Below are positions 24,001 to 27,000 of a DNA stretch of 64,000 bases, one piece after another (positions within the stretch are counted from its first letter, which is position 1; each line of letters opens with the position of its first letter). The stretch is taken from positions 20,970,455-21,034,454 of the forward strand of contig CAIIXF020000002.1 in the NCBI GenBank assembly GCA_903813345.2, read 5' to 3'. The DNA comes from Owenia fusiformis. Its lineage: Eukaryota > Annelida > Polychaeta > Sabellida > Oweniidae. The position numbers and the translations under genes were made by a program. Under the pieces are notes generated by a model. That model did no database searches, was not told the origin of the DNA, and was given only the letters and a program-made list of their open reading frames with translations.

Positions 24001-27000
24001 CCATCACCCATGCTGCCATCTATTTATCAATCTATAAAAATAGTCCATTGAACCACTAACAGTCCACCAAGCAGCCTTAAATCATAGATGCAGCAGTGTT
24101 AGTCTTTGTGGTCTTGTAATCCAATTATACACGTAGTTCAAAAGATACCTATTCAAAAGAAAATCAAATGTTTGATTCATTACGCTTGATAGGAAACAAT
24201 GGAATATAGTTGACAACTTGACACAGCTAGTTAACTTCTGCATCACATGGTTTCATTCTAAATAAACCAATATTTGTGTTGTCAAATTACAAAGTCCTAG
24301 AAGCATCATGTTGATTCAACATAATTGATTAACTTATGTATTTACACTTACAGTCATCTTGAAGAATACAGTAGCAAAATGACCCATTTACTTTTGTATT
24401 TACAGTCACCTTGAAAAGAACAGTAGCAAAAATGACCCATTTACTTGTGTATTTACAGTCACCTTGAAGAGTACAGTAGCAAAATGACCCATTTATTTGT
24501 ATATTTACAGTCACCTTGAAGAGTACAGTAGCAAAAATGACCCATTTACTTGTGTATTTACAGTCACCTTGAAAAGTACAGTAGCAAAAATGACCCATTT
24601 ACTTGTGTATTTACAGTCATCTTGAAGAGCACAGTAGCAAAATGACCTATTTACTTGTGTATTTACAGTCACCTTGAAGAGTACAGTAGCAAAAATGACC
24701 CATTAACTTGTGTATTTACAGTCATCTTGAAGAGTACAGTAGCAAAAATGACCCATTAACTTGTGTATTTACAGTCATCTTGAAGAGTACAGAAGCAAAA
24801 ATGACCCATTAACTTGTGTATTTACAGTCACCTTGAAAAGTACAGTAGCAAAAATGACCCATTTACTTGTGTATTTACAGTCATTTTGAAGAGCACAGTA
24901 GCAAAATGACCTATTTACTTGTGTATTTACAGTCACCTTGAAGAGTACAGTAGCAAAAATGACCCATTAACTTGTGTATTTACAGTCATCTTGAAGAGTA
25001 CAGTAAAAAAAATGACCCATTAACTTTTGTATTTACACTCATCTTGAAGAATAGTGTAGCAAAAATGACCCATTAACTTGTGTATTTACAGTCATCTTGA
25101 AGAGTACAGTAGCAAAAATGACCCATTAACTTGTGTATTTACAGTCATCTTGAAGAGTACAGTAAAAAAATGACCCATTAACTTTTGTATTTACAGTCAT
25201 CTTGAAGAGTACAGTAGCAAAAATGACCCATTAACTTGTGTATTTACAGTCATCTTGAAGAGTACAGTAAAAAATGACCCATTAACTTTTGTATTTACAC
25301 TCATCTTGAAGAATAAAGTAGCAAAAATGACCCATTAACTTGTGTATTTACAGTCATCTTGAAGAGTACAGTAGCAAAAATGACCCATTAACTTGTGTAT
25401 TTACAGTCATCTTGAAGAGTACAGTAAAAAAATGACCCATTAACTTTTGTATTTACACTCATCTTGAAGAATAAAGTAGCAAAAATGACCCATTAACTTG
25501 TGTATTTACAGTCATCTTGAAGAGTACAGTAGCAAAAATGACCCAAGAGAGGATGACGATTATATTGAACCACCGACTCCAAGAGAAATCTCACTCAAAC
25601 GCCATGCAACCTTGGGGTTTGGTTTCGTGGCAGGCAGCGAGAAACCAGTAATTGTGAGGTTTGTGACAGAGGGTGGCCCTAGCGAGGACAAACTATTGCC
25701 AGGTGACCAGATCATTAAGATCAATGGAGAGGAGGTGAAGAAAGCACCACGTGAATATGTCATCGATCTTGTCAGGTGTGTATGTCTTCTACATTTCATA
25801 TATAATTTCTTTGAACCTCCTTAAAACGTTTTCTTATAACCAGCAACCTTCCTTAAATTTACTGACGGTAACATTAGCTATTAAAGAGTCTTTACAACAA
25901 AAGTTCATTGATCTGTATGGTTTTATTTTTTTATCCAGTATTTATATGGCTAAACACAATGCCATGTATACGTCACAGTTAATATCACTTAACATTCAAA
26001 TATTGTCTGATAAATATGTATGTGAAGATTGTTGAAGATGGCATTTGTACGGAGTGAATTCATAGAGAACCACTGTTAAATTGCAAATGTGTTTAATGCC
26101 AATCTGTACTTTAATGTTGAAGAAGCTGAATCGAAAGAATATTATTGTAAACCTCAGAGAGAGCATTTAGACATTGTGTTAACTGTCTATATTTGACAAA
26201 TAGTATAACAATTTGAATGGCAGCCATCTTCCTCTAAAATATTTTTCCGTTTTGCTAAAAGGATGAAATTCCCCAAAATTCATATATTTACTGGACCTTT
26301 CTCCATATAATATATCCACATTGATTGCTAATAATGGGATACAGTTGTACCACAGTAAATGAGAGCCATAATGCTAAAATTATTATTAATTAATAACTTG
26401 TTCTAATTGCACCTGAGCACCTTGTGTCATTTAAGATGGAAATGGAGATAGAGCACATGTTACTATTCAGATCTAAATTATTAATTTTTAGGCCAGTGAA
26501 ATTAAATATTCTGTCATCGTGCTCACAAGATTTGTTAAATATAGTACTGTCTTTATTATTTAGATCTTCATGTGAAAAATTAGAAACAACATCAATTTGG
26601 AAAGCCAGGATATGATGAAATTATTCTTTAAACCAGAAATTATCATAGACCATTGATGGCAAAATATCAAATCTGAAAGAGTTCAAAATCTTTAAATAGA
26701 AATATAAAAATAAATTATTTTATAACGGCCTTAATATTCTTATTCTGTTTACTAATTTGAATTGCATTCTATGAAATATAAGGAGACCATCTTTAATATA
26801 TTGGTTGACATAGATGGAAAAAAGAAGTACATGCATATAAATAATCATATCATTCTATAGTATGGAAGGGATATAGTGTCCATTGTTTATTTGATTCTTT
26901 AGAGTATTCTGGATAAAATGAGGCAATCTGAGACAATAAATCGTAAGGAATTAGGACTTTCAGCTTCATGAGATTTCTATATGGAGTTTAACATGAAGTT

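Follow-up and report, generated by a model that had tools for sequence, protein, structure and literature searches.

Minisatellites that span exon–intron borders have been described in amphioxus, where they were called "mirages" and occur in Adh3 and in the globin genes BflGb6 and BflGb9, with both intron ends affected (PMC3087553). In the accessible passages of that report, unit length is given as 10–72 bp for Adh3 and 150–160 bp for BflGb6, copy number differs between alleles (two haplotypes of BflGb6 carry 6 and 3 units), and RT-PCR suggests that regular splicing is undisturbed (PMC3087553). Repeats in the amphioxus genes PGBD5 and TnC have, in the available part of a second report, been likened to mirages (PMC3902484).

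As far as the available text of the respective reports goes, a minisatellite multiplies a donor splice site inside the human gene G1P3 (cited in PMC2572611), and in human segmental-duplication genes tandem repeat expansion at exon–intron borders alters gene structure (PMC2812944). The G1P3 minisatellite differs from the Owenia acceptor array in that it repeats donors and, to judge by the title of the report, its sites serve the transcript. In the recent paralogues studied there, the human border repeats are described as giving rise to novel introns and to alternative transcripts, whereas in Owenia only one product reads open. An earthworm metallothionein gene contains intronic minisatellites, which the available passages do not put across an exon border (PMC12783039). 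An exon-border array of the mirage kind in a spiralian was not found in the open-access literature, a scope that makes this weak evidence of absence.

The Owenia fusiformis array described here is of the mirage kind, i.e., a minisatellite at an exon–intron border. As far as the amphioxus arrays are described in the passages available, the likeness extends to a unit that spans the exon–intron border at either intron end, to minisatellite-sized units (53 and 69 bp), and to the retention of the splice dinucleotide by many, not all, units (AG in 20 of 23; GT in 3 of 3). Like BflGb6, the acceptor-side array repeats the intron end together with the exon start. On the same partial account, the differences are that the host is a spiralian and not a lancelet (cephalochordate), that the acceptor-side array has 23 units rather than the 6 and 3 of BflGb6, and that arrays stand at both ends of a single intron. 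Moreover, the accessible text has the border units of BflGb6 left out of homogenization (PMC3087553), whereas the Owenia exon unit (unit 23) is identical to the inner units 8, 15, and 20. New here are the host, the copy number, the presence of arrays at both intron ends, and the full identity of the exon-border unit.

Results

Domain organization and the authentic junction

The window, i.e., the whole analyzed stretch of 64,000 nucleotides, contains WW, PDZ, and FERM parts in that order on one strand (Table 1). The PDZ match in the joined WW/PDZ exons (E 8.5e-9) is over the Pfam cut-off, and the PDB matches for the PDZ domain include the solved PDZ domain of FRMPD1 (2edv, E 1.8e-5), although this is not the top match. 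The Pfam WW match (E 6.6e-5) scores 23.3 bits, which is under the 26.9-bit cut-off, and spans the first-exon half only. The downstream FERM central domain, being on the same strand, supports a WW/PDZ/FERM gene, for which similarity suggests the name FRMPD4.

The earlier note on this DNA had the WW exon, ending at 15097, joined to 25512, and this proposal is upheld at the level of homology. The joined sequence aligns with the solved WW domains of YAP1 and Itch, across the junction as far as DPR. We accepted the 15097–25512 junction because the join restores a WW domain that aligns through it, and donor 15097 is thus predicted to be spliced to acceptor 25512.

Table 1. Features of the WW/PDZ/FERM locus and exon-border arrays elsewhere in the Owenia genome. 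A slash marks the exon–intron junction.
Feature	Position	Strand	Description	Basis
Exon with first half of WW	14978..15097	+	120 nt; ends AAA/GTAAGT	Open frame, WW match; acceptor TTTTTCAG at 14977 by eye
Donor-side array	15061..15247	+	69-bp unit × 2.7; GT donors at 15097, 15166, 15235	TRF, Markov resamples
Intron	15098..25511	+	10,414 nt; tandem arrays at both ends	Junction from reading frame and WW homology
Acceptor-side array	24348..25545	+	23 units of 51–53 nt; last unit is exon start	TRF, unit cutting, Markov resamples
Exon with second half of WW and PDZ	25512..25775	+	264 nt; first 34 nt belong to last array unit; donor AG/GTGTGT	
Weaker FERM_M match	30801–31058	+	E 0.0029; under cut-off	
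FERM central domain (FERM_M) open frame	31415..31669	+	E 5.9e-7; 30.3 bits, cut-off 23.8	
L036 acceptor array	G000 C1:18290537, 479–1497		Homeobox exon, Hox cluster; 76-bp unit × 13.4	
L024 border array			PDZ exon, acceptor side; 158-bp unit × 2, 97.5%	
L078 donor-side repeat, decayed			Ras-family exon; 75.9% over 87 nt	BLAST only, missed by TRF

The window also contains a 34-bp minisatellite (10927–11840; 26.9 copies, 88% matches) to which no recognized exon is linked. On the minus strand, there are an ankyrin-repeat open frame of 589 residues (47504–49270) and an open frame with a Pfam Deltameth_res match (61116–61424; PF16020, E 7.5e-12).

Anatomy and history of the acceptor-side array

TRF describes the acceptor-side array with a period of 53, 22.8 copies, 92% matches, and a score of 2011, compared with a top score of 63 among 200 Markov resamples of 24340–25545. 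Cutting at the repeated exon start gave 23 unit starts. The 53-nt unit consists of 19 nt of intron end followed by 34 nt that are identical or nearly identical to the opening 34 coding nt of the exon, and the final unit (23) becomes the start of exon 25512–25775. Both points had been made in the earlier note and are borne out by the unit comparison. Its array is real as well, but the span given for it (24330–25775) is not that delimited by TRF. An AG precedes the junction in 20 of the 23 units, which amounts to 19 live decoys plus the authentic site; units 14, 19, and 22 carry AC instead (25039, 25301, and 25459) and are dead decoys. The former figure of about 23 acceptors is therefore right for the number of units and too high for the live decoys. 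All three AC sites lie in one unit type and may go back to a single mutation that was spread by amplification.

Decoy units 8, 15, and 20 are identical to the authentic unit at all 53 nt. For decoy 25354 (unit 20), the match to the authentic junction extends from −85 nt to +34 nt, and the two first diverge after exon nucleotide 34, where the real exon continues with AGAGAGGATGACGA... and the decoy with TTAACTTGTG.... Given identity over this whole stretch, local junction sequence cannot separate this decoy from the authentic site. The unit nearest to the authentic acceptor (22) being dead, the nearest live decoy is 25407, 105 nt upstream, from which the exon would measure 369 nt; exons from the live decoys would span 369–1422 nt, versus 264 nt for the authentic exon.

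The units are arranged in higher-order A-B-C blocks beside the exon (19 = 22; 16 = 21; 8 = 15 = 20 = 23), and a distal block is repeated as well, with units 10-11-12 copying units 5-6-7 with 1, 1, and 0 edits. This pattern points to unequal exchange or slippage that would have involved several units at once. Mean diversity across units is 0.096 in the intronic part and 0.083 in the exonic part, a similarity that would be expected of copies evolving together as a single satellite. Only unit 1, at the far 5′ end, has diverged, with 8 edits within its 19 intronic nt.

Tandem arrays are prone to misassembly, and for one amphioxus array an aberrant assembly in the draft genome is described in the passages available (PMC3087553). 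We nevertheless consider it very unlikely that the Owenia array is an assembly artefact or has a wrong copy number. A DNA search of the genome assembly with 25200–25790 gave five matches, every one at C2:20994782–20996244, i.e., at a single locus, the assembly representing one haplotype. This, together with the ordered block pattern in which the units differ, speaks against a simple artefact, while leaving room for an incorrect copy number. Similar arrays also occur at unrelated loci, as described later.

A second array on the donor side of the intron

The earlier note did not include the smaller array that TRF detected at the donor end (15061–15247). Its 69-nt unit comprises 37 nt of exon end and 32 nt of intron start, and TRF reports 94% matches and a score of 325, with 38 as the best score among 200 Markov resamples. 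The GT is kept in all three units, as GTAAGT at 15097 and 15166 and as GTTAGT at 15235. The second donor (15166) thus has the same GTAAGT as the first, preceded by 29 identical nucleotides, and would yield an exon of just 189 nt; exon length alone therefore fails to explain donor choice. Both extra donors (15166 and 15235) run into a stop at once. Taken together, intron 15098–25511 presents three donors and 20 AG acceptors of the same kind.

Reading frames and splice-site choice

Counting from donor 15097, unit length puts 9 of the 22 upstream starts in frame, which contradicts the earlier claim of a 2-nt shift per unit with every third unit in frame; the units vary between 51 and 53 nt. Frame by length makes no difference, however, because none of the 22 upstream starts reads open and each decoy leads to a premature stop. 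Combining every donor with every AG acceptor, one pair of 60 is open, namely 15097 with 25512. If the WW/PDZ protein is made, the view that splice choice must favor the last AG would accordingly hold.

The reading that 25512 is not the acceptor in use, and that the array region belongs to a different transcript structure, has little to recommend it. The join to 15097 restores a WW domain aligned across the junction, and it is the sole open pair among all 69 tested when the AC starts are included. We regard this alternative as extremely unlikely.

Another idea is that RNA structure hides the decoys or loops them out and leaves the last AG as the only visible one. The fold of a 351-nt part of the region (25250–25600) is no better than that of shuffled sequences (z +1.48; 94 of 100 shuffles are equal or better), and it is hardly credible that structure of this kind accounts for the choice. 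Past nucleotide 34, exon 25512–25775 contains a stretch that, by eye, is purine rich and could hold exon-body enhancers.

Exon-border arrays elsewhere in the Owenia genome

A sample of 82 domain exons (30 PDZ, 22 homeobox, and 30 Ras) was screened for border arrays, by TRF (period of at least 25, within 40 nt of the domain match) and by BLAST. TRF alone found arrays near the match in 2 of the 82 loci, and TRF arrays of this minimum period cover 2.7% of the flanking DNA (6403 of 236,078 nt). An enrichment of arrays at exon borders was not found in this small sample (2 of 82 loci versus 2.7% flank coverage), and the comparison is rough because the 82 matches have 164 edges, many of which are not true exon borders. 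Given that minisatellites make up 2.7% of the flanks, border arrays need no special cause, and since the rate at borders is close to the flank coverage, they look like the fraction of an overall minisatellite burden that chance has placed at exon edges. The array studied here is not the singular oddity that it was first taken for: its kind is known from the amphioxus mirages and recurs in the Owenia genome.

In the Hox cluster, the L036 array ends 17 nt inside a homeobox exon. Of its 14 unit starts, 13 carry AG. Among the 13 upstream starts, one is open: the closest decoy (1406) keeps the frame and could add 25 residues ahead of the homeodomain. Decoys are thus not harmful by rule. L036 adjoins, on C1, the Hox gene L040, whose homeodomain is trailed by KLTGP, which we take to be the spiralian Lox5 signature; by its place in the cluster, L036 is probably Hox5/Scr. 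The KLTGP peptide speaks against an amphioxus host; searches for COX1 and for GFP-family proteins gave no match and carry little weight on this point. The PDZ exon with the L024 border array is presumably X11/Mint-like.

Several candidates were set aside. L025 was dropped since its BLAST match (42 nt, 78.6%) has a copy at 666–707 that looks like another PDZ coding stretch. L005 was left out because its 22-bp array (1735–1827), which reaches 12 nt into the end of the match, is under the period limit. Pairs of homeobox matches about 350 bp apart, considered as possible border arrays, turned out to be homeobox exons duplicated in tandem.

Some duplicated homeobox exons merit mention in their own right. 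At L088 (G000 C6:27595800–27596900), two PBX-like homeobox exon copies in tandem (259–403 and 610–754) are 71% identical and both open, with acceptor and donor, making them candidate mutually exclusive exons. At L087 (G000 C7:7975900–7977000, reverse strand), tandem POU-like homeobox exon ends (327–408 and 693–774; 81.7% identical) are each followed by a stop of their own and are candidate alternative last exons. At L089 (G000 C1:17970300–17971200), at the end of the Hox cluster, the neighboring homeobox exons at 138–329 and 489–681 are 70% identical and are candidates for alternative exons or for a tandem Post-type pair.

Discussion

The locus is most probably explained by near-neutral growth of a minisatellite across a splice junction of a WW/PDZ/FERM (FRMPD-like) gene, with the decoys being tolerated because the exon-proximal site wins. 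This explanation takes as its starting point what is directly seen, i.e., the anatomy of the array, the identity of decoy and authentic sites, the stops, the block amplification, and the recurrence of such arrays in the genome; near-neutrality, splice choice, exon definition, and decay are the steps that it proposes. A minisatellite across the intron–exon junction would have been enlarged by tandem duplication and then by block amplification, leaving the intron with 19 further 3′ splice junctions that are intact, in addition to the copy that is used, and a smaller array would have arisen likewise at the donor end of the 10.4-kb intron. In an intron of this length, the exon rather than the intron is most likely the recognized unit. 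The exon body past nucleotide 34 and donor 25775 could then favor binding of U2AF and U2 at the nearest acceptor, so that 25512 would be chosen over the decoys, a prediction drawn from sequence. Misspliced RNAs, every one of which would hit a stop, are presumably cleared by nonsense-mediated decay.

Alternatively, the array could act as a regulatory brake, in which decoy acceptors compete with the authentic one, some transcripts are diverted to decay, and the number of units tunes expression. All 22 upstream starts yield stops, three decoys are identical to the authentic junction over 53 nt, and at least one developmental gene (Hox) carries an array, all of which would suit such a role. On the other hand, the amphioxus reports, in the passages accessible, state that regular splicing is not disturbed (PMC3087553, PMC3902484), and in our small screen border arrays are no commoner than minisatellites in the flanks (TRF, 2 of 82 loci versus 2.7% coverage). 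We consider a brake unlikely. The specific form, with competition among identical 3′ splice sites, loss to decay of transcripts spliced at decoys, and expression set by the allelic number of units, seems highly improbable; if it were true, splice-site satellites, with arrays in Hox and other genes, would broadly supply the lineage with quantitative variation in gene regulation.

The locus is a natural test of splice-site choice among identical sites. With a decoy and the authentic site identical from −85 to +34, the effects of position and exon context can be told apart from the strength of the local splice site, a distinction that is difficult to draw in vivo. The case also shows that mirages, described from lancelets, occur in a spiralian as well. 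If such arrays are common in spiralians, the spare splice sites that they place at exon borders would provide material from which introns can arise and exons be extended, in keeping with the model proposed for amphioxus, as set out in the available passages (PMC3087553).
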